Origin: Clostridia bacterium
GTDB lineage: Bacteria; Bacillota; Clostridia; Oscillospirales; Acutalibacteraceae
Length of the DNA: 40,500 nucleotides
Assembly (NCBI GenBank): GCA_017434855.1
Contig: JAFRUA010000005.1
Coordinates: 1-40,500, forward strand
Reading direction: 5' to 3'
Each line of letters starts with the position of its first letter. Within the stretch, counting starts at the first letter, position 1. The position numbers were made by a program, and so were the translations under genes. The notes below the pieces were generated by a model. It did not search any database and was not told the DNA's origin. It worked only from the letters and a program-made list of their open reading frames with translations. Below, piece after piece: positions 4,999 to 31,141 of this stretch.

Positions 4999-5048
4999 CC
5001 ATAATAAGGGCGGAAACGGCGTTTTGTTGCGCGTTTTGCGCGACTTTT
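4999..5048 (-). promoter_or_regulatory. Conserved upstream control block, copy A
   Basis: A 50-base block (CCATAATAAGGGCGG at one end, GTTTTGCGCGACTTTT at the other on the plus strand) that recurs at 30516-30565 with only 3 differences. In both places it lies just upstream of a leftward phage-type gene. Read leftward it ends in TATTATGG, a possible -10, but I see no good -35 element. Both copies are followed by long A/T runs. A regulator site or promoter is inferred. Confidence 0.6.
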
Positions 5049-5098
5049 GAAAAATTTTTTGAAAAAAATTTTTTCAATTCGCAATTCGCAATTAGAAA

Positions 5099-5173
5099 TT
5101 GATCGCAAGCGATCGGGGCGCAATTGATCGCAAACGATCGGGGCGCAATTGATTGCACGGAAACGGGGTGCAA
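5099..5173. repeat. Three 25-bp tandem repeats with a palindromic core
   Basis: Three consecutive 25-base units occupy 5099-5123, 5124-5148 and 5149-5173. The core of unit 1 is GATCGCAAGCGATC, an inverted repeat. Unit 2 differs by one base in the core, and unit 3 is more diverged. The spacing and palindromic core resemble iterons or an operator array. The repeats lie upstream of the phage portal operon. Confidence 0.8.
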
Positions 5174-5337
5174 TTGCAGCCGCAGGTCTGCATCTTTTGC
5201 GTTCTTTTTGGTACGCGCCGCCGTTACAGCGTGGTTCACTCCGTAGGCGCCGCAATCTGATAGCGGCGAAGTTCTCGGTTTCCGCCTCGGTCGGTGCTTT
5301 TGCTGCGCAAAGGTTGCCGCCGGCAACCCGCACCGTA
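5174..5337. other. Gene-free mosaic segment of control module A
   Basis: No gene is supported here. The segment contains the word CCGCCTCGGTCGGTGCTTTT and a hairpin (GTTGCCGCCGGCAAC), near 5264-5330. Both recur near 31060-31130 at the far end of module B. It appears to be the distal part of a composite region shared by the two phage-type loci. Confidence 0.55.
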
Positions 5338-5371
5338 CAAAAAAAGCGGCCGCAGAGATCATCTCCGCGAC
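5338..5371 (-). terminator. Terminator of pduL
   Basis: Read leftward, a stem (GCGGAGAT / ATCTCTGC plus flanking pairs) is followed by a run of T residues (A-run 5338-5345 on the plus strand). It lies about 40 bases beyond the pduL stop codon. Confidence 0.75.
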
Positions 5372-5378
5372 CGTCGTC

Positions 5379-5412
5379 AAATCTAATATCTAATATCTAA
5401 CGTCTAAAATCT
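5379..5412. repeat. Short degenerate tandem repeat (CTAATAT type)
   Basis: Imperfect copies of a roughly 9-base unit (TCTAATATC) directly follow the pduL stop. It belongs to a class of short slippage-like repeats that appears between genes throughout this window with different unit sequences. Confidence 0.6.
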
Positions 5413-5413
5413 A

Positions 5414-5989
5414 TCACGCAAGGATTTCGCCCATCATGCCGGGCACGCAGCACGCGGCGTTGGACTCGTCCGTGTCGATGTGCATTGCCAGCGAAAACTT
5501 CGGGCTCACGCGCACCACCACGTCGCCGAAAATCAGCGACCGCTCGGCGGTGTCCACCTTGACCGAAACGATCTGCTTGTCTTCGAGCTGATACTTTTCG
5601 GCATCCCCCGGCGTCATGTGGATGTGGCGCTTGGCGATGATCACGCCGTCGTTCAGCTCCACCTCGCCCTTCGGGCCGACCAGCTTGCAGCCTGCGCTGC
5701 CCTTCAGGTCGCCGGATTCACGGATGGGCGCCTTGACGCCGATGGTCCGCGCGTCGCCGGCAGACAGTTCCACCTGGCTTTCCGGACGGACGGGGCCGAG
5801 GATCGACACGGCGGGAAAGCTGTTTTTGGGTCCGATGACCTGCACGCGCTCTTCACAGGCAAACTGCCCGGGCTGCGACAGGTCCTTTTTCGACGTCAGC
5901 TCATAGCCTTCGCCAAACAGAATGTCAAGCACACGGCGGCTGACGTGGACGTGGCGCGCCGAGGTTTCGATCAAAACGGGTTTGTTCAT
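5414..5989 (-). CDS. pduL: PduL-type phosphotransacylase
   Basis: A 191-residue enzyme of the PduL family, which interconverts acyl-CoA and acyl-phosphate (acetyl or propionyl) and so links to ATP formation through acetate kinase. The family's histidine motifs are present: HVHVSR near residue 13, KRHIHMTPGDAEKY near 120, and MHIDTDESNA near 168; these supply zinc ligands. The ATG at 5989 has AGGAGGA upstream. No microcompartment shell gene or encapsulation peptide is in view, so it is probably the cytosolic phosphotransacetylase of fermentative acetate production, as in many clostridia lacking Pta. It is transcribed alone, with its own promoter and terminator. Confidence 0.93.
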   Translation of the reverse strand: MNKPVLIETSARHVHVSRRVLDILFGEGYELTSKKDLSQPGQFACEERVQVIGPKNSFPAVSILGPVRPESQVELSAGDARTIGVKAPIRESGDLKGSAGCKLVGPKGEVELNDGVIIAKRHIHMTPGDAEKYQLEDKQIVSVKVDTAERSLIFGDVVVRVSPKFSLAMHIDTDESNAACCVPGMMGEILA

Positions 5990-6019
5990 AGCATTGTCCT
6001 CCTAAAAAAATCTGGTCCT

Positions 6020-6048
6020 ATTGTACAACATCCCGCCCCGGATTGCAA
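6020..6048 (-). promoter_or_regulatory. pduL promoter
   Basis: Leftward -35 TTGCAA (6043-6048) and -10 TACAAT (6020-6025) are separated by exactly 17 bases, about 25 bases before the ribosome site of pduL. Confidence 0.75.
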
Positions 6049-6097
6049 GAGGCTTTGGAAAAAAACAGGGGAGAGGATCATGTTGACCGAGCGCCTT

Positions 6098-6328
6098 TTA
6101 TCCGAACAGGCCTTTTTTCGTTTCGATCGCGCCGCATTCAAAGCCCGCGCGCTCCACTGCCGCCTTGATCGCATCGTCGGTCACGTCGCCGCCCAAGGTG
6201 ACGACCGCGCGGTTGGCCTCGTGGTCAGCCTTTGCCTTTTTTACGCCGTCCAGCTTACACAGTTCTTTTTCCACAGCGGCGGCGCAATGGCCGCAGTGCA
6301 TGCCGTTCACTTCAATGATCTTTTTCAT
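6098..6328 (-). other. copZ: Possible internal translation start giving free CopZ
   Basis: Within copA the codon for the methionine of MKKIIEVNGMHCGHC (ATG at 6326-6328) is preceded by AGAAAGGAACGATGAACCC, a plausible ribosome site. Translation from here would give a 76-residue protein of normal CopZ length. The linker upstream reads like a former intergenic spacer. Independent translation is inferred, not shown. Confidence 0.4.
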
Positions 6329-8668
6329 GGGTTCATCGTTCCTTTCTGTATTTGTTGATTCTGTTTCAGAATTTTTGATGCGGTACGGTTCGGCCGTGTC
6401 GTCCGCCGGCAGCGGGGCGGTTTCTTCTGCCGTGGGTGCAAACCGGCGCAGTCGCAGCGCGTTCAGCACCACACAGACCGAGCTCATGCTCATCGCCGCG
6501 GCGCCGATCATCGGCGACAGATGCACGCCGAATGCCGGGTCAAACACGCCGGCCGCCAGCGGAATGGCAATGACGTTGTAAAAGAATGCCCAAAACAGGC
6601 TCAGCCGGATGTTGCGGATGACGGCACGCGACAGACGGACCGCCGTCACCAGTGTGCGCAGGTCCTTTCGCATCAGCACCAGGTCGGCGCTTTCAATGGC
6701 GATGTCGGTGCCGTTCCCGATGGCAACGCCCACATCGGCGCGCGACAGGGCGGGCGCATCGTTGATGCCGTCGCCCACCATGGCCACCACCTTGCCCTGC
6801 TTTTGCAGATCGCGCACAGCGGCGTCTTTGTTTTGCGGCAGCACGTCGGCAATCACGGTGTCGATGGCCAGCCGTTCTCCCACAGCGCGGGCGGTGCGGG
6901 CGTTGTCTCCGGTCAGCATCACGCTTTCCAGCCCCATGCCGTGCAGCGCATGCACGGTTGCTTTGGCGGTCGGCTTTTCGGCGTCCGCCACGGCGATCAC
7001 GCCCAGAAGCGTTCCGTCCCGTGCGATCAGCAGCGGCGTTTTGCCCTCGCCGGAAAACTGCGCACACAGCGCATCGGCCGCCGCCGGGTCAACGCCGTTC
7101 GTTTCCATCAATTTACGGTTGCCCGCAAAGCAGCGCACACCGTCCACCGTTCCGCCGATGCCAAACCCGGCAAAGGACGCAAAATCTTCCACCGTCGGCA
7201 GCGGCAGCCCTGCGGCTTTTGCCGCAATCGCCCGGCCCAGCGGGTGTTCGCTTTGCTGCTCCAGCGCGGCGGCCAGCGTCAGCAGTTCTTGCTTTGTGGC
7301 GGCAAACGCCGTGACGTCGGTCACCTGGGGCGTGCCGTTGGTCAGGGTCCCGGTCTTGTCAAAGACGATCGTGTCCACGTCGCGCAGGCGCTCCATGGCG
7401 GCGGCACTTTTAAACAGCAGGCCGTTTTTTGCCGCCTGACCGGTGCCGACCATGATGGCCACCGGCGTGGCCAGTCCCAGCGCGCACGGGCAGGAGATCA
7501 CCAGCACCGAGATCGCATAGTTCAGCGCCCGGGCAAAATCGCGCGTTGCGGCAAACCAGACGCCGAAGCACACCAGAGCCACGCAAATCACCGCCGGCAC
7601 AAACACGCGGCTGACCCGGTCCGCCAGACGCGAAATGGGGGCCTTGCTGCCCGCCGCCTCCAGCGACAGGGCGATCATCTGCGACAGCGTGGTGGCGTCG
7701 CCGACCCGCGTTGCCTCAAACTGAAACGCGCCGCTTGTGTTGACGGATGCGCACAGCACATCGTCGCCCACCGTTTTTTCCGCCGGCATGCTTTCGCCGG
7801 TCAGGGCGCTCTGGTCCAGATATCCGGTGCCGGACACGATCACGCCGTCGGCGGGTACCTTGGTTCCCGGCCGTACCACAACGATATCGCCCACGGCAAG
7901 GGCTGCCGCGTCCACGGTGACCTCTTCCCCGTCGCGCAGCACCTGCGCGGTCGCGGGTTTCAGCGCGGTCAGCAACTGCAGCGCCGCCTTGGTCCTGCCC
8001 TTGGAGCGTTCCTCCAGAAACTTGCCCACGTCCACCAGCGTGACGATCATTGCGGCGGATTCAAAATACAGGTTCCCGTGCAACTGCGCCACCCGGTCCA
8101 TGTCGCCGGCACGCATGGCCAGAATGATCTGCACCGTGACAGCCACGCCATAAAAGAACGCGGCGGACGCGCCCATGGCGATCAGCGAATCCATATTCGG
8201 GGCGCGTTTCAGCAGCGCGCGAAAGCCGTTCACAAAATATTGCCGGTTCACGATCAGTACCGCCAGCGTCAGCACCAACTGCACCAGCGCAAAGATGTGC
8301 GCGTGGTCGTGCCCTGTGAGAAACGACGGCAGCGGCGCGCCGACCATGTGCCCCATCGAAACGTACATGAGGGGCAGCAGCAGCCCCAGCGACAGCACCA
8401 GCCGGCGGCGTTTGGCTGCCTCTGCGGCGTCGTCGGGGTCGGCGGCGCTCTTTTTCGGGTCGTGCACCGCGGCGCCGTAACCGGCGGCCTTGACCTTCAG
8501 GATGATATCGTTCGGCGTCAGGGCCGTGTCGTCATACTCCACGGTCATGGAATTCGTCAGCAGGTTCACCTGCACGTCCGTGGCGGCCTCCAGAGTTTCC
8601 ACCGCCTTCTGCACGCGGGCGCTGCACGCCGCGCACGACATGCCCGTCACGTCAAATTGTGTTTTCAT
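6098..8668 (-). CDS. copA: Copper-exporting P1B-type ATPase with C-terminal CopZ-like domain
   Basis: An 856-residue Cu(+) exporter. The N-terminal metal-binding domain has GMSCAAC (Cys12, Cys15). About eight membrane helices follow, with the CPC transport motif (SCPCALGLATP), the phosphorylation motif DKTGTLTNG and the hinge GDGINDAPA. After the last helix a hydrophilic linker leads into a second complete heavy-metal domain (GMHCGHC) like the chaperone CopZ. The fusion at the C-terminal end is unusual. ATG 8668 is chosen over the one 11 codons upstream because GAGGTGAT precedes it, and the upstream ATG lies within an operator-like palindrome. It is transcribed alone, with no CsoR or CopY gene nearby. 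Confidence 0.95.
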   Translation of the reverse strand: MKTQFDVTGMSCAACSARVQKAVETLEAATDVQVNLLTNSMTVEYDDTALTPNDIILKVKAAGYGAAVHDPKKSAADPDDAAEAAKRRRLVLSLGLLLPLMYVSMGHMVGAPLPSFLTGHDHAHIFALVQLVLTLAVLIVNRQYFVNGFRALLKRAPNMDSLIAMGASAAFFYGVAVTVQIILAMRAGDMDRVAQLHGNLYFESAAMIVTLVDVGKFLEERSKGRTKAALQLLTALKPATAQVLRDGEEVTVDAAALAVGDIVVVRPGTKVPADGVIVSGTGYLDQSALTGESMPAEKTVGDDVLCASVNTSGAFQFEATRVGDATTLSQMIALSLEAAGSKAPISRLADRVSRVFVPAVICVALVCFGVWFAATRDFARALNYAISVLVISCPCALGLATPVAIMVGTGQAAKNGLLFKSAAAMERLRDVDTIVFDKTGTLTNGTPQVTDVTAFAATKQELLTLAAALEQQSEHPLGRAIAAKAAGLPLPTVEDFASFAGFGIGGTVDGVRCFAGNRKLMETNGVDPAAADALCAQFSGEGKTPLLIARDGTLLGVIAVADAEKPTAKATVHALHGMGLESVMLTGDNARTARAVGERLAIDTVIADVLPQNKDAAVRDLQKQGKVVAMVGDGINDAPALSRADVGVAIGNGTDIAIESADLVLMRKDLRTLVTAVRLSRAVIRNIRLSLFWAFFYNVIAIPLAAGVFDPAFGVHLSPMIGAAAMSMSSVCVVLNALRLRRFAPTAEETAPLPADDTAEPYRIKNSETESTNTERNDEPMKKIIEVNGMHCGHCAAAVEKELCKLDGVKKAKADHEANRAVVTLGGDVTDDAIKAAVERAGFECGAIETKKGLFG

Positions 8669-8684
8669 GGCATCACCTCGCAAA

Positions 8685-8702
8685 GTTGAATAATCATTCA
8701 AC
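8685..8702. promoter_or_regulatory. Operator-like palindrome in the copA leader
   Basis: A perfect 7-bp inverted repeat, GTTGAAT-AATC-ATTCAAC, lies just downstream of the copA -10 element and before its ribosome site. The TGAA-N6-TTCA pattern resembles ArsR/SmtB-type metal-sensor operators. The cognate regulator is not in this window. Confidence 0.6.
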
Positions 8703-8712
8703 CGTCTGCTTT

Positions 8713-8741
8713 ATTATAGTACGCGGCGCGGTGATTGTCAA
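8713..8741 (-). promoter_or_regulatory. copA promoter
   Basis: A consensus leftward promoter: TTGACA (8736-8741), a 17-base spacer, then TATAAT (8713-8718). It is very strong by match, which fits a gene held off by a repressor at the adjacent palindrome. Confidence 0.85.
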
Positions 8742-8772
8742 GAGGAATGAAGAATGAGGAATGGAACCGATG

Positions 8773-8803
8773 AAAACCCCGCCACGCAAGCAAAGCGGCG
8801 GGG
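8773..8803 (-). terminator. Terminator of the lipoprotein gene
   Basis: Read leftward, CCCCGCC (8797-8803) pairs with GGCGGGG (8777-8783) and is followed by TTTT. It lies 35 bases after the stop codon of the lipoprotein gene. A short GAGGAATGAAGAATG-type tandem repeat (8742-8764) follows. Confidence 0.75.
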
Positions 8804-8837
8804 AGGGGATGGTGCTCTGGAACGCAATGTGTTTAAT

Positions 8838-11435
8838 TTACGCTGCCGTAGAATAAATGGTCGTGCATTCTCCTGTCTCCAGATTCTTTTCAAACAGGGC
8901 ACATTTCTTGTATTTGAACATCGAACGCCAACCGTTATACTGCGTGAACACGCCACTTGTCAAAAGAACGTATTCTGTGTTGCCTATTTTTTCGTAATAA
9001 CCAACACTCAGTATTTCAGATTCATCGCCGAACGAGCCGAGTTCTGCGTTACTGAATCCAGCATAATCATCTTTGTTCAATGCATTTAAATGTTCAATAT
9101 TTTCTATGTAATTCTTATAAGCGATGACATCCTCGTCTGCGCTGTCAATATCAATCACTACAAACGTGCCGAGTTCTGTCTCAATCTCTCCTGGCACCTC
9201 TGTTGCTTCACCTGTCTCCATGTTCATACACATGATACGGAACGACTGCGTGTAATGGCCGCTGCCCGCAATGTGCTGATAAACATAGAAAAGCTTGTTG
9301 TTGACAATGAACGGGGCCGTGAAAGAAAGATATCCGTTAGTCGAATGCAACTGCTCTTGATTTTCGACAGAGGACAGCGTTTCGGCGTGTTCCTTGTGCA
9401 GCTGCGTTGATGATTGCCCGTTTCCGCTGACGGTATAGATGCTGGTTTCCATTCCGTCGCTGCTTGTGCGATAGCAAACAACAGAGTGATCTGCGCAGAT
9501 CAAATATTCATCTTTGGAAATGATTGTCTTTTCCTGCGTCGTTGTGTTAATTGTAAAAATACTGTGTGTTTGATAATCAGCATCCTTTGCGACCAGATAG
9601 GTCCCGCCGTCGATCAGTCCAAGCAGAACGCCGTTGCCATGTTCTCTGCTGTCGCTGCCGTTGAGTGAACACGATTTCAACTTATAATTGTTGTAGCTGT
9701 AATCGACCGAGTTGGAATTATTCAGAAGTACCTGATAATAAATACGATCACCCCAAACGGCGATGTTTCCGGCGCCGGGTTCAGATAAAACAACGGTTTC
9801 CTCTCCGTTTCTGTTTCTGCAAATCAGTTGGTTTGCAGTATCGGAACGGAAATAATACGATCCGGACATGGTTTCGTCAGAGGTAAAAGAATCGTTGCGA
9901 TACTTCCAATAATATATGTTGCCGTCTTTATATACGACATTTCCAAACGCTGCCTTTGCGGCTTCTTCATTGCTCAGCGGCGGAACGTACCACTGAATGT
10001 CTGCGCCGCCGGCGGGTTCATAGCCGTCATAGCCGAATGCGCGATAACTCGTCAAAAGCAGGCTGCGCAAGGCCGCATCGTCGGCGCCTTCGATGTCAGA
10101 CTTCCAGACCTGGGACCAGGTCAGATGCAGGTCATCGCGGGCGGCAAAATAGTCTGCCTTGGCCTTTTCATAGGTTTCTTCAGACACGGGGTCGTCACCG
10201 AGCGCTGAAACGTAATAGATGTATTCTTCGCCGATCGTTGCGTCATAGACGCGGAAGAACAAATCATCGGCAACCACGGCGGTACCTTCCGTATGCAGAT
10301 CGCCATAAAATGTCCAGTTGCCCGCTCCGCCGGAGCGTTCAGTCCCGTGGCAGAAATAACGTGCTTCACCGGTCTTTTTGTCGCGCAGCAAAAGCGGCGT
10401 CTGTTCACCGTCAGGCGTGTTGGCGTCCGGAATAAAGTATTCATAGCCCGGGCCGCAATCCGGTTCGGATGAAAGGCTGTCTGCAAAACGGCACTGCATC
10501 GGAACCACAGTTTTGCTTGCCGGGTCAATGCGATAATAGAAATTATAATCGATCAGTCCGCTGCCGCCGGAATAGATATTGGTGTTCAGCTCAAGGACCC
10601 CGTCAAAATCAAGATCAAGGAAGATCAGGCTGTAGCTTCCGGTGTAAGAACTGTATTCTGCCAGATTCTGCATCCACACATCTCGGTTGTTCATATAAAT
10701 CGCCACGGCGTCTTCGGCAGACATGGCCGGTGCGCCCGGTTCGGCGTCGAATTCGATGGCGTCAAACTCCTGCATCGGCAGGGCGGCCTGCTTGTAGTCC
10801 TTTGCCGCGCGGTCATAGTCCGCCTGCGAAATCACTTCCAGATCGTCTGCATAGATTTCGCGCTCGTCGGCCGGCAGTTTTTCCGTCGTGCGATAGCAGG
10901 TGTTCATGCCGTCGATCATCATGCTTTCGTCACGGATGAGGGTTTCGGTTTCGGCCAGTTCGCCGTTCTGAATCTCATAGAACGTCGTGACGTCCAGGTG
11001 CGCATAATCGTCGTCTGTTTTCACCAGACGGTGGTCCTCGGCCAGGGTGAGCACGGTGTCTGCCGCCGTGTCGATCAACTGTTTGATGCTGCCGGCGTCA
11101 ACGGTAAACAGGTCATAGACCCTGGCGCTTTCGTCCTTGCGGCCGATGAACAGCTCCGGCGTCTTGTCGCCGTTCAGGTCCAGGAAGGCGAACGACGGCT
11201 CAGCCGTCTTTTCCAGCGTCGCAAGGTTCGGTGACAGGTTGTTTTCGATGAACTTTTCGCGCGGCCAGTTTTCGTCAAACGCCTGCTTGTACTTTTTCAG
11301 CACGGGAGCATAGAGAGTTTCATATTCCGCCGTGTCTTCCGGTTTGGCTTTGGTGCCGGATTTCTTTTTCACGCAGCCCGCAAACGACGTCAGCAGCAGA
11401 ACGAGGGTGAGCAGCAGGGCAAGGGTCCGTTTCAT
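8838..11435 (-). CDS. Large lipoprotein with EF-hand-like loops and DUF5050-like repeats
   Basis: An 865-residue exported protein. ATG 11435 has GAAAGGAG upstream. Residues 1-21 form a lipoprotein signal ending in LTSFAGC, so it is probably anchored on the outer face of the membrane through Cys21. Two acidic loops (DLNGDKTPELFIG near 85; DLDFDGVLELN near 275) resemble calcium-binding EF-hand or VCBS loops. The C-terminal half has repeated motifs such as YKDGNIYYWKY and WGDRIYYQV, typical of DUF5050 beta-propeller-like proteins of Firmicutes. No catalytic residues are recognised. It is monocistronic, with its own promoter and terminator. A surface binding or sensing role is a guess. Confidence 0.82.
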   Translation of the reverse strand: MKRTLALLLTLVLLLTSFAGCVKKKSGTKAKPEDTAEYETLYAPVLKKYKQAFDENWPREKFIENNLSPNLATLEKTAEPSFAFLDLNGDKTPELFIGRKDESARVYDLFTVDAGSIKQLIDTAADTVLTLAEDHRLVKTDDDYAHLDVTTFYEIQNGELAETETLIRDESMMIDGMNTCYRTTEKLPADEREIYADDLEVISQADYDRAAKDYKQAALPMQEFDAIEFDAEPGAPAMSAEDAVAIYMNNRDVWMQNLAEYSSYTGSYSLIFLDLDFDGVLELNTNIYSGGSGLIDYNFYYRIDPASKTVVPMQCRFADSLSSEPDCGPGYEYFIPDANTPDGEQTPLLLRDKKTGEARYFCHGTERSGGAGNWTFYGDLHTEGTAVVADDLFFRVYDATIGEEYIYYVSALGDDPVSEETYEKAKADYFAARDDLHLTWSQVWKSDIEGADDAALRSLLLTSYRAFGYDGYEPAGGADIQWYVPPLSNEEAAKAAFGNVVYKDGNIYYWKYRNDSFTSDETMSGSYYFRSDTANQLICRNRNGEETVVLSEPGAGNIAVWGDRIYYQVLLNNSNSVDYSYNNYKLKSCSLNGSDSREHGNGVLLGLIDGGTYLVAKDADYQTHSIFTINTTTQEKTIISKDEYLICADHSVVCYRTSSDGMETSIYTVSGNGQSSTQLHKEHAETLSSVENQEQLHSTNGYLSFTAPFIVNNKLFYVYQHIAGSGHYTQSFRIMCMNMETGEATEVPGEIETELGTFVVIDIDSADEDVIAYKNYIENIEHLNALNKDDYAGFSNAELGSFGDESEILSVGYYEKIGNTEYVLLTSGVFTQYNGWRSMFKYKKCALFEKNLETGECTTIYSTAA

Positions 11436-11469
11436 AAAAGTCTCTCCTTTCAGTGAAAACACTGCGTTC

Positions 11470-11498
11470 ATTTTATCATACCGTGCCGAAATTTGCAA
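11470..11498 (-). promoter_or_regulatory. Promoter of the lipoprotein gene
   Basis: Leftward TTGCAA (11493-11498), 17-base spacer, TAAAAT (11470-11475). Confidence 0.7.
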
Positions 11499-11520
11499 GC
11501 GCCTTTTCGTGTACGCCAAA

Positions 11521-11592
11521 AACGTCGAGAAAAGAAAAACAAAATTCGGGTATGGGCGCAGCCCGTCCAAAGAAAGCACAAAAACAGGGCGC
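11521..11592. repeat. 72-bp dispersed intergenic repeat, copy 1
   Basis: This 72-base stretch (beginning AACGTCGAGAAAAG) recurs at 40284-40355 in the same orientation with 4 differences. It contains a GGGC-rich hairpin near 11555-11569. Read leftward both copies could encode a similar short peptide, but there is no ribosome site and the frames diverge at the edges, so it is treated as a non-coding repeat. Confidence 0.8.
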
Positions 11593-11685
11593 AGCGTTTT
11601 CTCTGCGTCCTGCTTTCGATCAATCTGTTGTTTTTCTTTTGGCTTTTCGCGAAATGCGACAGCCCCGTTCGGTTTTGTTGTACGC

Positions 11686-13128: not shown

Positions 13129-13151
13129 AGATAAACCTCCGGTTTATTATC

Positions 13152-13291: not shown

Positions 13292-13296
13292 TGATG

Positions 13297-13314
13297 AAAA
13301 GGCTTACGCCTTTT
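13297..13314 (-). terminator. Short hairpin at the ileS stop codon
   Basis: Read leftward, AAAAGGC-GTAA-GCCTTTT is a perfect 7-bp stem whose GUAA tetraloop contains the ileS stop codon, ending in a short T-run. It is a possible weak terminator or mRNA end stabiliser. Confidence 0.4.
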
Positions 13315-22297: not shown

Positions 22298-24925
22298 TCA
22301 GCCTTCGCTGATCGCAGCCTGCGCGGCGGCCAGTCTTGCAATGGGCACACGGAACGGGGAGCAGGAGACATAGTCCAGGCCGATCTTGTGGCAGAACTCG
22401 ACGCTCGACGGGTCGCCGCCGTGCTCGCCGCAGATGCCGCAGTGCATTTCGGGACGGACTTTCTTGCCCATTTCAACAGCCATTTCCATCAGACGGCCGA
22501 CGCCGATCTGGTCCAGCTTCGCGAACGGATCGTTCTCAAAGATCTTGGCGTCATAGTAGGCGTCAAGGAACTTGCCCGCGTCGTCACGGCTGAAGCCGTA
22601 GGTCATCTGGGTCAGGTCGTTGGTGCCGAAGCAGAAGAACTCGGCGTCCTTTGCGATCTCGTCGGCAGTCAGGGCTGCGCGCGGAATCTCGATCATGGTA
22701 CCGACTTCATACTTGAGGTCGGAGCCGGCCTTCGCGATCTCGGCGTCCGCGGTCTCAACGACAAACTTCTTGACGTACTTGAGCTCTTTGGTGTCGCCCA
22801 CCAGCGGGATCATGATCTCGGGCACGATGGTCCAGTCCGGATGCGCCTTCTGCACATTGATGGCGGCGCGGATGACGGCGGCCGTCTGCATCTTGGCGAT
22901 CTCCGGATAGGTGACGGCCAGACGGCAGCCACGGTGACCCATCATCGGGTTGAACTCGTGCAGGCCCTGGATGATGCCCTTGATGGTCTCAACGCTCTTG
23001 CCCTGCGCGGCGGCAAGGGCAGCGATGTCGGCCTCTTCGGTCGGGACGAACTCATGCAGCGGCGGGTCCAGGAAGCGGATGGTGACCGGGCAGCCTTCCA
23101 GCGCTTCATACAGCTTTTCAAAGTCGGACTGCTGCATCGGCAGAATCTTGGCCAGGGCGGCCTCGCGCTCTTCAACGGTGTCGGCGCAGATCATCTCGCG
23201 GAACGCGGCGATGCGGTCGGCCTCAAAGAACATGTGCTCGGTACGGCAAAGACCGATGCCCTCGGCGCCCAGCTCACGGGCCTTCTTCGCGTCGGCCGGG
23301 GTGTCGGCGTTGGTGCGGACCTTCAGCTTGCGATATTTGTCGGCCCAGCCCATGACGCGGCCGAATTCGCCGGCGATGGTGGCGTCCACGGTCGGGATCG
23401 CACCGTCATAGATGTTGCCGGTGGAACCGTCGATGGAAATGACGTCGCCTTCGTGGAATTCTTTGCCCGCAAGGGTGAACTTTTTGTTTTCTTCGTCCAT
23501 GACGATGTCGGAGCAGCCGGAAACGCAGCAGGTTCCCATGCCGCGGGCCACAACGGCCGCGTGGGAGGTCATGCCGCCGCGCACGGTCAGGATGCCCTGG
23601 GAGGCTTTCATACCGGTGATGTCTTCCGGAGAGGTCTCCAGACGGACCAGGATGACTTTCTTGCCGTCGGCCTTCCAGGCGGCGGCGTCGTCGGCGGTGA
23701 AGACGATCTGGCCGCAGGCAGCGCCCGGGGACGCGCCCAGACCCTTGCCCATCGGGGACGCGGCCTTGAGGGCCTTCGCGTCAAACTGCGGGTGCAGCAG
23801 AGTGTCAAGGTTGCGCGGGTCGATCATCAGAACGGCTTCCTGCTCGGTACGCATGCCTTCGTCCACCAGGTCGCACGCGATCTTCAGCGCGGCCTGCGCG
23901 GTGCGCTTGCCGTTGCGGGTCTGCAGCATATACAGCTTGCCGTGCTCCACGGTGAACTCCATGTCCTGCATGTCTCTGTAGTGGTTTTCAAGCTTGTGGC
24001 AGACGTCCTTGAACTGTGCAAACGCTTCGGGGAACTTCTCTTCCATTTCGCTGATGTGCATCGGGGTACGGACGCCGGCGACGACGTCTTCGCCCTGGGC
24101 GTTGGTGAGGAACTCACCAAACAGGCCCTTGCTGCCGGTGGCGGGGTCGCGGGTGAACGCAACGCCGGTGCCGCAGTCGTCGCCCATGTTGCCGAACGCC
24201 ATGGCCTGCACGTTGACGGCGGTACCCCAGGAGTACGGGATATCGTTGTCGCGGCGATAGACGTTGGCGCGCGGGTTGTCCCAGGAACGGAACACGGCCT
24301 TGATGGCCTCAAAGAGCTGCTCTTTCGGATCGTCCGGGAAGTCCTTGCCAAGCTGAGATTTATACTCCGCCTTGAACTGGCCGGCCAGGGTCTTGAGATC
24401 GTCGGCGGTCAGCTCGACGTCCTGCTTGACGCCCTTTTCTTCCTTCATCTTGTCGATGAGCTGTTCAAAATACTTCTTGCCGACTTCCATGACGACGTCA
24501 GAGAACATCTGGATGAAGCGGCGATAGCAGTCCCACGCCCAGCGCGGATTGTTTGATTTTTCCGCAATGACGTTGACCACGCGCTCGTTGAGACCGAGGT
24601 TGAGGATCGTGTCCATCATGCCCGGCATGGACGCACGCGCACCGGAGCGGACAGAGACCAGCAGCGGGTTCTCTTCATCGCCGAACTTTTTGCCGGTGAT
24701 TTCTTCCAGCTTCGGAATGGTGGCCATGATCTCGGCGACGATGTCGTCATTGATCTTGCGTCCGTCCTCGTAGTACTGGGTGCAGGCCTCGGTGGTGATG
24801 GTGAAGCCCTGCGGAACGGGGAGGCCGAGGTTGGTCATTTCGGCCAGGTTTGCACCTTTGCCGCCAAGCAGCTCTCTCATGTTCGCGTTGCCTTCCGAGA
24901 ACAGATAAACGAATTTCTTGCCCAT
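22298..24925 (-). CDS. ppdK: Pyruvate, phosphate dikinase
   Basis: An 875-residue PPDK, the usual family length. It interconverts pyruvate, ATP and Pi with PEP, AMP and PPi in the cytosol. Domains in order: an ATP-grasp nucleotide-binding region (GGKGANLAEM at the start, SVRSGARASMPGMMDT near 90), the phosphohistidine domain with GGMTSHAAVVARGMG, and the PEP/pyruvate barrel with GLCRTEHMF and GTNDLTQM, ending in the CGICGEHGGDPSS motif. ATG 24925 is chosen for AGGAGG 9 bases upstream. In clostridia this enzyme commonly serves PPi-linked glycolysis. It is monocistronic. Confidence 0.97.
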   Translation of the reverse strand: MGKKFVYLFSEGNANMRELLGGKGANLAEMTNLGLPVPQGFTITTEACTQYYEDGRKINDDIVAEIMATIPKLEEITGKKFGDEENPLLVSVRSGARASMPGMMDTILNLGLNERVVNVIAEKSNNPRWAWDCYRRFIQMFSDVVMEVGKKYFEQLIDKMKEEKGVKQDVELTADDLKTLAGQFKAEYKSQLGKDFPDDPKEQLFEAIKAVFRSWDNPRANVYRRDNDIPYSWGTAVNVQAMAFGNMGDDCGTGVAFTRDPATGSKGLFGEFLTNAQGEDVVAGVRTPMHISEMEEKFPEAFAQFKDVCHKLENHYRDMQDMEFTVEHGKLYMLQTRNGKRTAQAALKIACDLVDEGMRTEQEAVLMIDPRNLDTLLHPQFDAKALKAASPMGKGLGASPGAACGQIVFTADDAAAWKADGKKVILVRLETSPEDITGMKASQGILTVRGGMTSHAAVVARGMGTCCVSGCSDIVMDEENKKFTLAGKEFHEGDVISIDGSTGNIYDGAIPTVDATIAGEFGRVMGWADKYRKLKVRTNADTPADAKKARELGAEGIGLCRTEHMFFEADRIAAFREMICADTVEEREAALAKILPMQQSDFEKLYEALEGCPVTIRFLDPPLHEFVPTEEADIAALAAAQGKSVETIKGIIQGLHEFNPMMGHRGCRLAVTYPEIAKMQTAAVIRAAINVQKAHPDWTIVPEIMIPLVGDTKELKYVKKFVVETADAEIAKAGSDLKYEVGTMIEIPRAALTADEIAKDAEFFCFGTNDLTQMTYGFSRDDAGKFLDAYYDAKIFENDPFAKLDQIGVGRLMEMAVEMGKKVRPEMHCGICGEHGGDPSSVEFCHKIGLDYVSCSPFRVPIARLAAAQAAISEG

Positions 24926-25006
24926 GGGAATCATCCTCCTGAAAATGATATACGAAAATAAAGTTGACGCAAACGGCAGAACTGACACGCCATTTACATT
25001 CAGTAA

Positions 25007-25035
25007 ATTTTAACAAATTTCGCCGCCTTTGTCTA
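25007..25035 (-). promoter_or_regulatory. ppdK promoter
   Basis: Leftward TAGACA (25030-25035), 17-base spacer, TAAAAT (25007-25012). The gene-free stretch 24926-25281 also has a symmetric AT-rich hairpin near 25071-25088 (AAATTTTT / AAAAATTT) between the divergent ppdK and ABC units. No gene was seen in it. Confidence 0.65.
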
Positions 25036-25281
25036 TTGCTTATTTCCATATAGATTCCGGGATTATTTCAAAATTTTTGTAAAAATTTACATATGCGCCA
25101 AAACAGGGCCGCCAAAGGGGATGAAAATTTACAAAATTCGGGCGAAGATTTTTTAGAATTGGGTAGAAATTTTGAGGATCTTATGATACAATTAGAATGT
25201 TATATTTTGCGTGCCGGGAGAAACGTTTGTCATCCAAGCGGCCCTTCCGTGATCGAATACTCAAACAAGGAGATACAGATT

Positions 25282-25983
25282 ATGAGCTTTATCGAGTTTG
25301 ATTCCGTTTACAAGCGTTACACCGCCGGCGAGGTCATCATCCCCGCCGTGGACGGCGTATCCTTTCAGATTGAGCAGGGTGAGTTTTGCCTGATCGTCGG
25401 CACATCCGGCGCGGGCAAGTCCACTGTGCTGAACATGCTGGGCGGCATGGATTCCTGCGACGACGGCAAGATCCGCGTGGCGGGCCGGCTGATCAACGCC
25501 CTTTCCAAGGACGAGCTGGTCAATTACCGCCGCTATGACGTGGGGTTTGTTTTTCAGTTTTATAACCTGGTGCCGAACCTGACGGCGCTGGAAAACGTGG
25601 AGCTTGCCAGCCAGCTCAACCGCAAGTCGCTGGACCCGCGCATGGTCCTGGAAAAGGTCGGTCTGCGCGACCGGCTTGACAACTTTCCGTCGCAGCTGAG
25701 CGGCGGCGAGCAGCAGCGCGTTTCGATCGCGCGCGCCCTGGCCAAGAACCCGAAGCTGCTGCTGTGCGACGAGCCGACCGGCGCGCTGGATTATCGCACC
25801 GGCAAACAGATTTTGCGTCTGCTGCAGCGTACCTGCCGCGAAACGGGCACCACCGTCATTGTCATCACCCACAACTCCGCGCTGGCGGGCATGGCGGACC
25901 GCATCATCACCATGCGTTCCGGCCGTGTGGCGCAGATCGCCGTCAACGACCACCCGGTCTCTGTTGACGTGCTGGAATGGTAA
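25282..25983 (+). CDS. ABC transporter ATP-binding protein (MacB/LolD type)
   Basis: A 233-residue ATPase of the family that pairs with FtsX-like permeases. Seen in order: Walker [10 protein letters not shown] (near 40), a Q-loop in FVFQFYNL, the signature [15 protein letters not shown] (near 140), Walker [13 protein letters not shown] and the H-loop VITHN. ATG 25282 is chosen because AAGGAGATACAGATT precedes it; an upstream extension would add unrelated residues. It is followed 43 bases later by its membrane partner. Such pairs drive mechanical or efflux-type export of lipids, peptides or antibiotics rather than solute uptake. The substrate is unknown. Confidence 0.94.
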
Positions 25984-26026
25984 TCTGTTTCCCGGTCCCT
26001 GAACCTATCTTTTTTGGAGTGACATC

Positions 26027-29000
26027 ATGAACAAAGCTTTGCTGAGAGACACTTTCAGAACCATTGACCGCACCAAGTCAAGGTTCATTTCGCTGGTGGC
26101 GATCGTTGCGCTGGGCGTCAGCTTTTTTGCCGGCATCAACGCGACCGCGCCCGATATGCGCGACACGGCCCGGCAATACTATATTGACACAAACGCCATG
26201 GACCTGCAGGTCATTTCGACCGCCGGGCTCACGGCAGACGACGCCTATATCCTCAGCACCATCAACGGGGTTGAGGCCGTCAGCGGCGAAAAATTTGTGG
26301 ACGGTGTGCTGCTGGTCGACAAGCAAAAGGTCAGCGACGTGGACGGCGCCGAGCTGATCGTGCGCGCCTATTCACTGGACGTTGCCAAGGCGATCGACGC
26401 GGAAAACGGCGTGGACGACCGGTCGTTTTTGAACCGGCCGCAATTGATCGAGGGCAGTTGGCCGACCCAGCTCAACCAGTGCCTGGTGGACGCCAGCAAT
26501 CTTTCCACACCGGAGGAATTCAAGATCGGCGCCACCGTGACGCTGCAGGGCGCGGGCACCGATATGGCCGGCACCCTGGTCAACACCGATTATACCATCA
26601 CGGGCATCATCCGTTCGCCGCTGTATATTTCTTTTGACCGCGGCAACACGACCATCGGCACCGGCAAGCTGGGCTGCTTTGTCTATGTGCCGCAGGAAAA
26701 CTTCAAGACCGACTATTACAGCAGCCTGTCGATCAAGCTGGAAGGGACCGACCGGATGGACCCGTATTCCGAAGCTTACAGCGATTATGTCACGCCGTAT
26801 GTGGAATACATTTCTTCCATTGCAGAGGAGCGCCTGGCGCCGCGCGTGGCGTCGCTGCGCAGTCAATACACCACCCTGGTCACCCAGGGCGAGGCCGATT
26901 ACAACGAGGCCAAGACCCGCATCGACCAGCAGATCGCCGCGGGCGCCGAACAGGTCGCCCAGATCCTGGACCTGGCGCAGAACGGCGATGCCCAACTGGC
27001 CGAATACAAACGGCAATATAACGAAAAAGCCGCCGAGGTCAGCGCCAAGATCGGTTCCAGCAAATATGAGCATTCCACGCAGTATGCCACCTGGGAAGAA
27101 AAGAACCGCCAGTATCAGGAAACCCAGGCGATGCTGCAGCAATATTCCAATGCAAAGACCGAATATCAACTGGCCAAAACGGAATACGAGACCGCCAACA
27201 ATCAGGTGCAGAGCCTGCTGCAGATGGTGAATTATCTGGAGCAGCTGGTGGCCACCACCCGCGCGGCCATCACCCAGCTCCACGCCACGCAGGACAACGC
27301 CGTGGACGCTACCATCGGCCGGTTCCTGGCATCCGGTTTGGTGGGCAGCGAGGTGGATTCCATCGTCAACTCGGTCCGGTCGCTGACCGCCGTCGGCACG
27401 GCGGAAGAGATCGCCGCCTATCTGGAACCGCAGCTGCAGTCGATCGAGCTGCAGCTTGCAAACACCCGTGCCCAGCTTCAGCAGACGCAGGCGCAGCTTG
27501 CACAGAAGAAAGTCGAGCTGGACAACGCCGCCGCCATGGTCGCCCAGTTGGAACAGACCCAGGCCCAGATGAACGCCGCCAAAGCCGCGCTGGACGACGC
27601 GGAGCGCGCGCTGGCCAGTGCAAGCAGTGATATTCAGGAAGGGGAAATGCACGCCCTTCTGGAACTGGCCCAGGCCAAAAGCGACATCACCGCGTATGAA
27701 ACCAACCTGCGCCTGGCAAAGGCCCAGGCCGCAACCGCCGAGGCCGCGTTTGAAGAGCAAAAAGCCGCCGCTTATGCCGAACTGGACGAGGCCAGGAACA
27801 AGCTGGAGGATGCCAAAACCTTTTTGATGAACCTGGACAACGCCAAGTGGTATGTCAACGACCGCAACGACGCGCTGCGCGGCTATGACGAATACGGCAG
27901 CACCGCCGACCGCACGGCGGCCCTGGCCATCGTGTTCCCGTGGTTCTTCTTTATCGTGTCCAGTCTGGTCTGCCTGAACACCATGACCCGTATGGTCGAG
28001 GATGAGCGCACCCAGCTCGGCACGCTCAAGGCGCTCGGTTTCACCAACAAAGAAATCGTGTTCAAATACATCTTTTATGCCCTGCTGGCGTCGGTCATCG
28101 GCGGTGTGACGGGCATGCTGATCGGGTCGGTGCTCTTCCCGTTTGCACTGACCAAGGCGTATGCCATCATGTTTGCCGTGCCGCCCACGGTGCTGAGGAT
28201 CCGCCCGCTGTATGCGATCATCGGCCTTGCGACCTCCATCGGCACCACGGTCTTTGCGGCCTATGGCGCCTGCCACCGCAGCCTGACGGCAGTGCCCTCC
28301 ACCCTGATGCGCCCCAAGGCGCCCAAGGGCGGCAAGCGTGTGCTGCTGGAACGCTTCCCCGCGCTCTGGAGCCGGTTCAACTTTACCTGGAAGGTCACGC
28401 TGCGCAACGTGTTCCGCAACAAAAAGCGCTTCATTATGGCCGTCATCGGCGTGTTTGGCTGCACAGCGCTGCTGGTCGCCGGCTTCGGGCTGGACAAGAG
28501 CATCAACACCAGCCTGGAAAAGCAGTTCACAGACAGCGACAGCATCTTCCGCTATGATCTGCAGATCGTCACCAACGGCAGCGACGCCGAAACCACGGCC
28601 AACGCCCTGAACTTTGTGCGGTCCCGGCCGGAGATCGCCGCGGCGAACCTGACCTATATGAAGGTCTATAACACCGTCAGTCAAAAGGAACCCGACAAGC
28701 GAATGGAAACCTATATCGTTGCGCCGGACGACGACGCCTGCTTCCAGAACTATATCTATCTGCGCGACTACAAGACCGGCGAATTCCTGCCGCTGCAGCA
28801 GGACGGCGCCATCATCAGCAGAAAGCTGGCCAAACGGCTGGACCTGGACGTCGGCGACAACATCTATGTGGACCTGGACGACGGGACCTTCCTGCCCATT
28901 CAGGTCGCCGCCGTTGCCGAAAACTACATTTTCCACTACATCTATCTGTCTCACGGCGCTTATGTGTCCATCTTCGGCGCCGAACCGCAATACAACTATG

Positions 29001-29539
29001 TATCGGCGCGGCTGGCCTATGACCTGTCGCCCGAACAGAAAGAGAATCTGTCCCACGACCTGATGGATGAATACTCCATCAGCGCCCTTGCCTATCAGGA
29101 CGATATCCAGCGCTCGTTTGAAAGCATCTTTGACTCGCTGGGCTACATCGTCATCGTGCTGGTCGTGTCGGCCGGTCTGCTGTCGCTGATCGTGCTTTAC
29201 AACCTGTCAAGCATCAATATCCATGAGCGTACCAAAGAGATCGCGACCATCAAGGTGCTCGGCTTCACCCCGCGCGAGGTCTCGTCTTACATCTTCCGCG
29301 AAAACATCCTCATCGGCATCATCGGCACACTGCTCGGCCTTTTGGGCGGCGTCGGGCTGCACCGTATCGTCATCATGGTGGGCGAGGTCGATATCATCAT
29401 GTTCGGGCGCGACGCCGGCGTCATGGCGTTTGTCTATGCCACCGTGCTGTCGATGGCCTTTACGCTGCTGGTGAACCTGATCCTGCGCCGCAATCTCAAC
29501 AAGGTCGATATGGTCGAGTCGCTGAAGTCGATTGAATAA
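26027..29539 (+). CDS. Large FtsX/MacB-type ABC permease with extracytoplasmic coiled coil
   Basis: A 1170-residue permease. One N-terminal membrane helix (residues 20-40) is followed by a MacB-like extracytoplasmic domain. Residues about 285-605 form a long Gln/Ala/Glu-rich coiled coil (for example AQLQQTQAQLAQKK) outside the membrane. The first FtsX core lies at about 630-745 (GTLKALGFTNKEIVFKY), another helix near 800 opens a second extracytoplasmic domain, and the second FtsX core is at about 1040-1165 (ATIKVLGFTPREVSSYI). The coiled coil may span the cell wall or bind a partner. The start at ATG 26027 has TTGGAGTGACATC before it. It is co-transcribed with the ATPase. Confidence 0.93.
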   Translation: MNKALLRDTFRTIDRTKSRFISLVAIVALGVSFFAGINATAPDMRDTARQYYIDTNAMDLQVISTAGLTADDAYILSTINGVEAVSGEKFVDGVLLVDKQKVSDVDGAELIVRAYSLDVAKAIDAENGVDDRSFLNRPQLIEGSWPTQLNQCLVDASNLSTPEEFKIGATVTLQGAGTDMAGTLVNTDYTITGIIRSPLYISFDRGNTTIGTGKLGCFVYVPQENFKTDYYSSLSIKLEGTDRMDPYSEAYSDYVTPYVEYISSIAEERLAPRVASLRSQYTTLVTQGEADYNEAKTRIDQQIAAGAEQVAQILDLAQNGDAQLAEYKRQYNEKAAEVSAKIGSSKYEHSTQYATWEEKNRQYQETQAMLQQYSNAKTEYQLAKTEYETANNQVQSLLQMVNYLEQLVATTRAAITQLHATQDNAVDATIGRFLASGLVGSEVDSIVNSVRSLTAVGTAEEIAAYLEPQLQSIELQLANTRAQLQQTQAQLAQKKVELDNAAAMVAQLEQTQAQMNAAKAALDDAERALASASSDIQEGEMHALLELAQAKSDITAYETNLRLAKAQAATAEAAFEEQKAAAYAELDEARNKLEDAKTFLMNLDNAKWYVNDRNDALRGYDEYGSTADRTAALAIVFPWFFFIVSSLVCLNTMTRMVEDERTQLGTLKALGFTNKEIVFKYIFYALLASVIGGVTGMLIGSVLFPFALTKAYAIMFAVPPTVLRIRPLYAIIGLATSIGTTVFAAYGACHRSLTAVPSTLMRPKAPKGGKRVLLERFPALWSRFNFTWKVTLRNVFRNKKRFIMAVIGVFGCTALLVAGFGLDKSINTSLEKQFTDSDSIFRYDLQIVTNGSDAETTANALNFVRSRPEIAAANLTYMKVYNTVSQKEPDKRMETYIVAPDDDACFQNYIYLRDYKTGEFLPLQQDGAIISRKLAKRLDLDVGDNIYVDLDDGTFLPIQVAAVAENYIFHYIYLSHGAYVSIFGAEPQYNYVSARLAYDLSPEQKENLSHDLMDEYSISALAYQDDIQRSFESIFDSLGYIVIVLVVSAGLLSLIVLYNLSSINIHERTKEIATIKVLGFTPREVSSYIFRENILIGIIGTLLGLLGGVGLHRIVIMVGEVDIIMFGRDAGVMAFVYATVLSMAFTLLVNLILRRNLNKVDMVESLKSIE

Positions 29540-29542
29540 GCT

Positions 29543-29568
29543 GTCAGCAGTCAGCAGTTAGCGGTTAG
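29543..29568. repeat. Short degenerate tandem repeat (GTCAGCA type)
   Basis: Imperfect 7- to 8-base units (GTCAGCAGTCAGCAGTTAGC...) directly follow the permease stop. Another such tract, ATTCGCAATTCGCAATT, lies just beyond. Both are like the short repeats scattered between genes elsewhere in the window. Confidence 0.6.
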
Positions 29569-29670
29569 TACGCGGGGGACGTGGGCGACTGTGTAAGGTT
29601 CGTGCCGCGAAAAATTCGCAATTCGCAATTGATGTCGCGGGGAACCTTTCCTCTGCTGAAAGATTTCATC

Positions 29671-29787
29671 CGCAAAGGGACGCGCAGGTGACGATTGTGT
29701 TTCTGTTTGGTACGCGGGGAAGGTTGCCGCTGCCGCAAGCAATGCCCCGCCGATTCCACGCGGCGGTGTGGAGAGCGTGTTTTAGGC
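29671..29787 (+). repeat. 117-bp inverted repeat, left arm
   Basis: Bases 29671-29787 are the reverse complement of 31142-31258 with a single mismatch. Weaker similarity continues inward for about 40 bases (CCCC...GGGGCTGCGGGT). The arms bound a 1.35-kb segment carrying a phage-type gene. Each arm contains an open stretch that reads the same in both copies, but no ribosome site supports a gene. Confidence 0.92.
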
Positions 29788-30047
29788 GCCCCCGGTTGAT
29801 TGGGGCTGCGGGTGTCCGGCGGACGCCTCGCGAAGCGAAGCAACGACCGGGTTGCGGGTTGCCACCGGCAATCCACGCGGCAAAGCGCCGCTTTCGGTTG
29901 CGGAGCCGTGCGGCATGGACCGAAAAGGGACATAAAGACCCCTTGTGCACCCCTTCGCGGACGGAACCCTTTGGCAGAGAAACGCTTTCCGCGCGACCGC
30001 AATGATTCATTTTTCAGTCTTCGGTTTTCCGTTTTCAGTTCCGCATT
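29788..30047. other. Gene-free GC-rich stretch inside the inverted-repeat island
   Basis: No gene is supported between the permease stop (29539) and the stop of the winged-helix gene (30048). The stretch contains the phrase GAAGCAACGACCGGG near 29845, which recurs near 30940 in the same orientation, and several short GC-rich hairpins. It appears to be mosaic intergenic repeat material. Confidence 0.5.
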
Positions 30048-30491
30048 TCACTCTTCCCGCAGGCCGATCGCAGTCCTGGCATAAGCCTCCAGGTCATAGG
30101 AGGCGTCGCTGCGATAGACGCTTTCCTTCCGGTCCTTCGCACGCTGCGGTCTTCGGGCGGGGGCAGCTGCGGTGGATTGCTGATCTTCCACCACAGTGAT
30201 CAGACGGCCGCGTGGAGACTTTGTCTGAACGATCAGTCCCGCGCTTTCAAAGCGATCCAGAACGCGCGCCACCTTTGACTTGCTCAGGCGCAGACGTTCC
30301 GCAATGCGGTTGGCGCCTGTCACAAGCTGACCGACCTCCAGCCGGACGGGCGTTCCGTCAAAGACGGCGTCGTGTGTCTCATAGGCCGCATGCGTCTTCA
30401 GATCCCACCAGATGATAAAATGGACCGGGTCCGCACAGATCACATGATTCGCCCAAACGCTTCGTTCAAATTTAACCCAGTTTCCCGCCAT
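30048..30491 (-). CDS. Phage-type winged-helix / replication-initiator-like protein
   Basis: A 147-residue protein. ATG 30491 has GGAGGGATCGCG upstream. The layout is that of N-terminal domains of phage replisome organisers: an opening FERSVWANHVICADPVHFIIWWDLKTHA-like segment (about 8-35), a beta turn (VRLEVGQLVTG), then a winged helix (IAERLRLSKSKVARVLDRFE, 62-81, with wing LIVQTKSPRGRLITVV). The C terminus is basic (PARRPQRAKDRK) and ends with SYDLEAYARTAIG, a tail common in such phage proteins. It stands alone, between long inverted repeats, behind a control block shared with the capsid cassette. DNA binding is likely; replication initiation is inferred. Confidence 0.72.
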   Translation of the reverse strand: MAGNWVKFERSVWANHVICADPVHFIIWWDLKTHAAYETHDAVFDGTPVRLEVGQLVTGANRIAERLRLSKSKVARVLDRFESAGLIVQTKSPRGRLITVVEDQQSTAAAPARRPQRAKDRKESVYRSDASYDLEAYARTAIGLREE

Positions 30492-30515
30492 CGCGATCCC
30501 TCCAAAAAAGTCCTT

Positions 30516-30565
30516 CCATAATAAGGGCGGAATCGCCGTTTTGTTGCGTGTTTTGCGCGACTTTT
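30516..30565 (-). promoter_or_regulatory. Conserved upstream control block, copy B
   Basis: Identical to 4999-5048 at 47 of 50 positions and in the same orientation relative to the downstream leftward gene, with an A/T run following in both. Here it lies 25 bases from the start codon of the winged-helix gene. Read leftward it ends with TATTATGG, a possible -10. Confidence 0.6.
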
Positions 30566-30658
30566 CCGAAAAAAGTTAAAAAAATTTTTTTCGCGTGCGC
30601 GCGTCACGTGTGTGATTCTTTACCTTCTTTCCTTCTTTCTTTCTTTATTTATTATTAC

Positions 30659-30801
30659 GGTTCACTTGCGATTCACTTGCGATTCACTTGCGATTCAGTT
30701 GCGATTCACTTGCGATTCAGTTGCGATTCAGTTGCGGTTCACTTGCGGTTCATTTGCGGTTCATTTGCGGCGCAGTTGGGGCGCATTTGCGGTGCAGTTT
30801 G
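30659..30801. repeat. Tandem array of thirteen 11-bp units
   Basis: Thirteen consecutive 11-base units with consensus GATTCACTTGC run without interruption. Variation is graded: GATT units to 30735, GGTTCA units to 30768, then GGCGCA/GGTGCA units. The period is close to one helical turn, so bound proteins would line up on one face. It lies upstream of the winged-helix gene in the position held by the 25-bp repeats in module A. Confidence 0.9.
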
Positions 30802-31141
30802 TCCGAGCACGCAGTGCAAAGTCGATCACCGATCGGCACGACAAAAGCACCCCGTTTTGAGGTCTGTTTCAGCCCGCAGCGCCGAGCCGGCTGATAGGTG
30901 CGGGTCTCCGGTGGGGACCTCTCAAGGCAAAGCCTTGAGAAGCAACGACCGGGCCGGCCGGCGAGAACGCGGAAGCGGAGAACGACCACTACGGGCGCCG
31001 GGCTGTTATTTTGCCCCCTCAGCTTCGCTGCGCTCAGCAGCTCAGTCTCGCCTGCCGTTCTCGGCTCCCGCCTCGGTCGTTGCTTTTGCGGCGTTGCCGC
31101 AAAGGTTGCCACCGGCAACCCGCAGCCCCGCAAGCAGGGGA
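30802..31141. other. Gene-free mosaic segment of control module B
   Basis: No gene is supported. The segment contains hairpins (CTCAAGG-CAAAG-CCTTGAG near 30920; TTGCGGC-GTT-GCCGCAA near 31087; GTTGCC-ACC-GGCAAC near 31106) and the phrase CCGCCTCGGTCGTTGCTTTT, also found in module A near 5270. The whole gene-free span from 30492 to 31383 is built of repeats. Confidence 0.5.

Follow-up and report, generated by a model that had tools for sequence, protein, structure and literature searches.

The DNA analysed here (called the window) is a 40,500-nucleotide (nt) stretch of contig JAFRUA010000005.1 from a Clostridia bacterium of the Acutalibacteraceae, order Oscillospirales (assembly GCA_017434855.1). 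It contains two copies of a short element, each placed upstream of a phage-type gene. An earlier note had reported a 50-base block shared by the two sites, and its count proved exact: 4999-5048 and 30516-30565 are identical at 47 of 50 positions. The likeness extends around the block (4982-5075 versus 30499-30592, 83% over 94 nt). Both blocks read on the minus strand, copy 1 (4995-5052) towards a portal gene with its start at 4900 and copy 2 (30512-30569) towards a winged-helix gene with its start at 30491. In copy 1, an inverted repeat at 5026-5044 lies upstream of a TATA-like box at about 5000-5007; the corresponding features of copy 2 are at 30543-30561 and about 30517-30524. A scan of the window with a model of the element, described below, returned exactly these two full-length sites, at 60.2 bits for copy 1, which belongs to the training set, and 53.2 bits for copy 2, which is outside that set but has a close sister inside. 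The two loci are 25 kb apart, with host genes in between. A search for a sigma-70-type promoter in 4800-5450 found none, and a known structured RNA was rejected (0 Rfam matches at the gathering score).

The genes behind copy 1, all on the minus strand, form a head operon. The first encodes a portal protein (3722-4900; PHROG portal, E 7e-127), for which Pfam Phage_portal falls just below the cut-off in a longer frame; its TTG start was assigned from the ribosome-binding site. The second (2784-3725) encodes a putative head maturation protease, a label that comes mainly from its position between portal and capsid; its matches are a PHROG family of unknown function (E 3e-100) and, weakly, "major head and protease" (E 1.5e-4). 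Then follow the gene for the major capsid protein (MCP; 1755-2768; Pfam Phage_capsid_4, PHROG major head protein E 1.5e-98), two small conserved genes recognised by gene calling and conserved position, g6 (1385-1744) and g7 (1042-1398), and the last gene of the operon, g8 (221-1045). The structural model of the g8 product (mean pLDDT 79.9, pTM 0.46) has phage neck and tail-terminator proteins as its best PDB matches (E 2.7e-5), and we refer to this protein as neck/tail-terminator-like.

Copy 2 precedes the minus-strand gene of a 147-aa winged-helix protein (30048-30491), our candidate regulator, which matches PHROG DnaD-like helicase loaders (E 7e-16) and lies just below the cut-off of a MarR-type helix-turn-helix domain. 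Its structural model comprises a winged helix and a disordered tail. A PDB search with this model returned nothing at E <= 0.001, the best matches being generic winged-helix proteins. For one member of the family, a CRP-like DNA-binding domain is matched just at the cut-off. The C-terminal motif of these proteins also ends frames of about 350-400 aa in several genomes (for example, G000:C45:40711-40851; G, C and L numbers are our handles for genomes, contigs and loci, and G000 is the genome of the window), and these frames are perhaps host DnaD-like proteins.

A search with the core pattern of the element, allowing up to two mismatches, identified 10 copies in the genome of the window and matches in 8 of 34 genomes of the genus. 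These genomes are draft assemblies (the nameable ones are metagenome bins), so that distances between contigs are not fixed. Five of the 10 copies precede phage-type genes, namely the portal-capsid operon, an adhesin-endolysin-holin-terminase operon, the gene of a VapE-domain helicase and two winged-helix genes. The second operon encodes a fibre-like protein, a BspA-type leucine-rich-repeat protein, an endolysin-like protein, two small membrane proteins, TerS and TerL; here the fibre label stems from a weak PHROG match and the endolysin label from PHROG, and CHAP and holin were matched in the G022 homologue of this operon. In both G000 and G022, TerS-TerL are at a locus separate from portal-g8, and the element stands before both halves. 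The element and phage-type loci lie among host genes and on separate contigs, and the parts of the set are non-contiguous. A copy with no phage-type gene behind it (L002, G000:C27) is located 449 bp before groES-groEL. At a host site near glmM, the element is accompanied by a winged-helix gene in G004 (L031, C33) and stands alone in G041 (L021, C33) and G019 (L036, C65), as if the winged-helix gene had been lost there and its promoter left behind.

The architecture of the element is promoter-like, with an inverted repeat of approximately TTTGTTGCA-n7-TGCAACAAA upstream of the TATA-like box, and relatives have the same architecture upstream of TerS. With the box placed by eye at 60 sites and the best upstream inverted repeat measured by script, the centre of the repeat was found 26-28 nt before the box at 44 of the 60 sites, among them 26 of 30 TerS leaders, compared with 0-8 of 60 for shuffled upstream sequence (20 rounds). 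In a 47-site alignment, 77% of the cells pair and 9 of 10 pairs have changed on both sides. The covariation score is 0.313 versus 0.165 in shuffles, none of which reached it (0 of 500).

The element model matches 33 of the 34 genus genomes at E <= 1e-3, which is largely a result by construction because all but one of these 33 genomes contributed training sites. Outside the training set there are 13 additional main-strand sites. Behind five of these are genes for replication initiators or helicases (G021, G018, G047 and, twice, G044), and six (L246-L251; G039, G011 and G017) are separated by 140-170 bp from a divergent gene encoding about 92 aa, which contains DUF6291 in both cases tested. The last two are a site in G004:C28 that faces a contig end without a recognised gene and a threshold-level site in G016:C18 without a phage-type gene. 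One site outside the training set, L243 (G044:C47, 2626-2684), precedes an apparent prophage replication operon encoding an ERCC4 nuclease, a winged-helix protein and a DnaB-type helicase. We also gave the model 63 other capsid loci, 60 of which have a TerS leader. Hits within 450 bp upstream of the extrapolated start were present in 30 of these 60 leaders (15 at E <= 1e-3), with eight more just inside the start; 8 of the 30 come from training genomes, and for non-training leaders the count is 22 of 52 (7 at E <= 1e-3). Among 46 hits at E <= 1, three were neither in a TerS leader nor opposite a leader hit on the other strand.

Particle proteins of tailed-phage origin are present, comprising the portal, the major capsid protein, TerL, TerS and the neck-like g8. 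The capsid profile identifies one gene each in 33 of the 34 genus genomes, without internal stops, the G010 copy being cut by contig ends. TerL occurs in the same 33 genomes, with additional TerL relatives or pieces in G003, G006, G020 and G021; G045 has neither capsid nor TerL. For the genes found, the order TerS-TerL-portal-protease-MCP-g6-g7-g8 is kept in 31 genomes. Gaps concern g6 and g8, which were undetected in G040 and G046, and the contig-cut clusters of G010 and G021, the latter ambiguous, TerL sequence being present on two contigs. Some members of the genus have a 111-aa gene without a family match before the MCP gene. Close baseplate-J relatives were not found in the genus, where 4 weak hits occur in 3 of the 34 genomes.

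In seven genome pairs, the ratio of nonsynonymous to synonymous divergence (dN/dS) of the head genes is 0.03-0.43, highest for TerS, which indicates purifying selection, and their dS is somewhat above or equal to that of host genes in the three pairs with measurable host genes. Evolution is faster in the winged-helix genes, with dN/dS of 0.16-0.54. In nine genomes, the cluster is found no more than 6 kb from mfd, two of them having the opposite relative orientation. Protein distances correlate with those of Mfd, the one host gene used in this test of co-divergence in nine genomes, with Mantel r values of 0.90 for TerL, 0.74 for the portal, 0.84 for the protease and 0.78 for MCP (at most 6 of 20,000 permutations); TerL changes about as fast as Mfd. 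Further clusters are located at other host sites, and the operon has thus moved at times. Taken together, the capsid gene in 33 of 34 genomes, the collinear head genes, the purifying selection and the co-divergence with mfd are the pattern of a domesticated system resembling a gene transfer agent (GTA).

The same genes might instead be debris left by ordinary prophages or satellites that have a phage promoter in common, with no present host function. Such an origin would account for the element copies without phage-type genes, for a winged-helix copy interrupted by stop codons in each of G041 and G022, and for the element at the apparent prophage replication operon of G044. It fits poorly with a single capsid gene free of internal stops in nearly every genome, with the low dN/dS values and with the co-divergence with Mfd. 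Moreover, only 6 of 50,697 phage records match the capsid, five of them uncultured faecal contigs and the sixth an Enterococcus phage that aligns over 39% of the query with 32% identity; by contrast, TerL has 428 phage relatives, mostly below 60% identity. We therefore consider debris quite unlikely. The earlier note had proposed a split satellite. A satellite fits the conservation of the head genes less well, and the operon is indeed split in this genome.

Based on its sequence, the promoter is probably activator-dependent, with the winged-helix protein as a candidate regulator. If the TATA-like box serves as a -10 element, the repeat would be positioned near -40, a location at which a bound activator would contact RNA polymerase. 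In nine genomes, we compared the elements of the head operon with those of the winged-helix gene. The repeats are 91.5% alike within genomes versus 64.6% between genomes (0 of 20,000 permutations), and the box regions 89.4% versus 81.9% (98 of 20,000 permutations). Repeats that are alike within and different between genomes are expected if there is one cognate regulator per genome, and the faster change of the repeat relative to the box would be expected if the former is recognised by a specific protein that itself changes and the latter by a general sigma factor. We thus propose that each genome has a single cognate regulator, in this lineage probably the winged-helix protein, which would control its own gene as well. 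This regulator would bind the repeat and fire all copies together, so that proteins for heads, packaging and lysis would be produced from the separate loci in a single burst. Strong relatives of the winged-helix family are present in 10 of 34 genomes, namely each of the 8 that have the short pattern and 2 of the remaining 26.

We regard it as rather probable that the shared block serves as promoter/operator for a dispersed phage regulon that has been domesticated, most likely a GTA-like system. The element precedes the head operon, the adhesin-lysis-terminase operon, VapE-like helicase genes and replication-initiator-like winged-helix genes, all of which are apart in the chromosome. By analogy with known GTAs, the particles may carry host DNA. 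Several observations weigh against the proposed regulon. The other 5 of the 10 copies in this genome are orphans, with no phage-type gene behind them. The anchors of the spacing measurement were set by eye, and at 16 of the 60 sites, including both window copies, the script preferred another repeat; these 16 sites align in register with the others, with imperfect arms. The number of pairs changed on both sides was reached in 26 of 500 shuffles, and the covariation is compatible with a palindromic protein site and with a hairpin alike and cannot separate the two. With regard to the regulator, 24 of the 34 genomes have no strong relative of the winged-helix family, so that this protein cannot be the regulator everywhere and another must act there; other initiator-like genes beside the element are candidates where the family is missing. 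In 3 of the 9 genomes compared (G001, G004 and G019), the repeat of the head operon resembles the winged-helix repeat of a close relative at least as much as that of its own genome, and shared descent or duplication thus explains part of the pattern. Finally, the regulon holds replication-type genes, which are said to be absent from known GTAs.

These replication-type genes also raise the possibility that the element functions as an origin of replication or a start site for packaging, at which the winged-helix protein and VapE/DnaC-like ATPases would act and where chromosome segments would be amplified or cut before packaging. The winged-helix proteins do match DnaD-like helicase loaders, and genes for VapE-like or IstB/DnaA-type ATPases follow several copies. 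In addition, phage-derived run-off replication is reportedly linked to the GTA of Bartonella, and the present set, as judged from gene content, likewise ties phage-derived replication genes to GTA-like genes. Yet the element is directly upstream of genes with the TATA-like box at a near-constant distance, as for a promoter, and the lysis and head operons carry it as well as the replication genes. An origin is thus unlikely in our view. Equally unlikely is an extension of the regulon hypothesis, in which the set would be a new and old Oscillospirales-type GTA lineage with scattered operons fired by a fast-evolving regulator derived from a phage helicase loader, a species-specific operator "lock" and co-fired helicase and initiator genes that amplify chromosome segments before packaging.

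The surroundings of the two blocks differ from what the earlier note had described as one composite module with the same order of parts. Its 25-bp tandem array beside copy 1 (5097-5176) and 11-bp tandem array beside copy 2 (about 30658-30801) are both present, on the plus strand. Homology between them was not detected, the best local match being merely an A/T run with a score of 27 (200 shuffles: 95% value 23, maximum 29). The common hairpin segments, with CCGCCTCGGTCG and GTTGCC-GGCAAC (5271-5332 and 31057-31124, plus strand), are homologous as claimed, with a local score of 86 versus a best of 30 in 200 shuffles. The array segment of copy 1 and the hairpin segment each have more than 10 matches elsewhere in the genome, mostly without the 50-base block nearby (on other contigs or at other distances), and the hairpin segment recurs in other members of the genus and in G029, which belongs to another family. 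We therefore rejected the composite module as a single unit and judged the 25-bp array, a dispersed intergenic repeat, the 11-bp array and both hairpin segments, a genome-wide repeat, to be outside the element. The suggestion of one regulator shared by two phage-type genes is supported for the 50-base block and not for the rest of the module; similarly, the dispersed element family is real for the block, with its 10 copies, and the adjoining unspecific repeats are dispersed separately. According to the earlier note, many copies before unrelated housekeeping genes would mark a general intergenic repeat. This description applies to the array and hairpin segments, and half of the block copies have no phage-type gene behind them.

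For the element itself, a role as a general intergenic repeat or terminator without regulatory function appears very improbable. Its five orphan copies and generic repeat neighbours would suit that role, and in some genomes, G044 and G047 among them, its arms with their A and T runs resemble a terminator, whereas many sites have the opposite polarity, with T before and A after. Furthermore, the strict pattern, allowing one mismatch, had no match in 196 other genomes of the order, and the element stands before TerS in the genus and was also detected in 30 of 60 further leaders. Other features of the window include a terminator-like hairpin (5347-5373, minus strand) between a phosphate propanoyltransferase gene (5414-5989) and copy 1. 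Inverted repeats of 138 nt (29661-29798 and 31131-31268, 94% complementary), parts of which recur in the genome, flank the winged-helix gene together with its element, array and hairpin, and could mark a moved cassette. A direct repeat of 82 nt (11518-11599 and 40281-40362, 93% alike) is unrelated to the element.

Beyond the genus, 21 of 197 genomes drawn from the order, including that of the window, carry one capsid gene each, and the system is thus wider than one genus. Capsid relatives were found in 187 stretches of named genomes. The best 80 of these include Ruminococcus bromii, Caproiciproducens and Anaeromassilibacillus, in which baseplate-type genes follow the head genes; named Faecalibacterium sequence was not among the best 80 of the 187. 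In a viral contig collection, 275 stretches encode the capsid, and those kept (L121-L200) are mostly on contigs of about 3-15 kb. Such capsid clusters are probably filed as phages in collections.

The closest published system, likened here by gene content, is FpGTA of Faecalibacterium prausnitzii, a two-operon GTA-like system published in January 2026 for which particles were shown (PMC12946183). Both systems combine a phage-derived head and packaging operon with a distant operon containing fibre, receptor-binding and lysis genes, and both are near-universal in a genus of gut Oscillospirales-type hosts. GTA-like packaging has been published for Ruminococcaceae and Oscillospiraceae, with a gene cluster given for Faecalibacterium only and no switch described in the main text of that report (PMC12946183). 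By comparison, the present system is known from its genes alone, includes replication-type genes, which FpGTA is reported to lack, and has a shared operator, whereas the word "promoter" is absent from the FpGTA main text (PMC12946183); moreover, the present genus is without a close baseplate-J relative. Among the matches listed, with incomplete coverage of preprints, there was no GTA of these hosts other than FpGTA.

In alphaproteobacteria, GafA has a DnaA-like DNA-binding part and stimulates the GTA cluster as well as the gene that encodes it, and GafY works on about 20 promoters in all, those of its own operon and of the main cluster plus about 18 others (PMC6363796, PMC11150451). The dedicated DNA-binding activator proposed here would act similarly, GafA likewise having a replication-initiator-like domain; unlike these proteins, our candidate resembles DnaD-like helicase loaders, and its site would be a palindrome near -40. 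Published criteria for GTAs include tailed-phage-derived particle proteins, an endogenised genome, often at several loci, mostly vertical inheritance or co-diversification, mostly random host DNA in the particles, an own genome that is not fully packageable, delivery to cells and the loss of replication (PMC9662315). The present system has phage-derived particle proteins, a multi-locus endogenised genome as seen in draft assemblies and mostly vertical inheritance as judged from its presence in 33 of 34 genus genomes and from mfd in nine; with respect to replication, helicase and initiator-like genes carry the element.

In conclusion, this set of genes looks like a domesticated virus long inherited by this uncultured gut bacterium and its relatives. 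The conserved operator provides a sequence handle that finds the unlinked lysis operon, the helicase and the candidate regulator, all of which would be missed by likeness to head genes alone, and it makes the joint firing of scattered GTA-like operons testable in Gram-positive bacteria.

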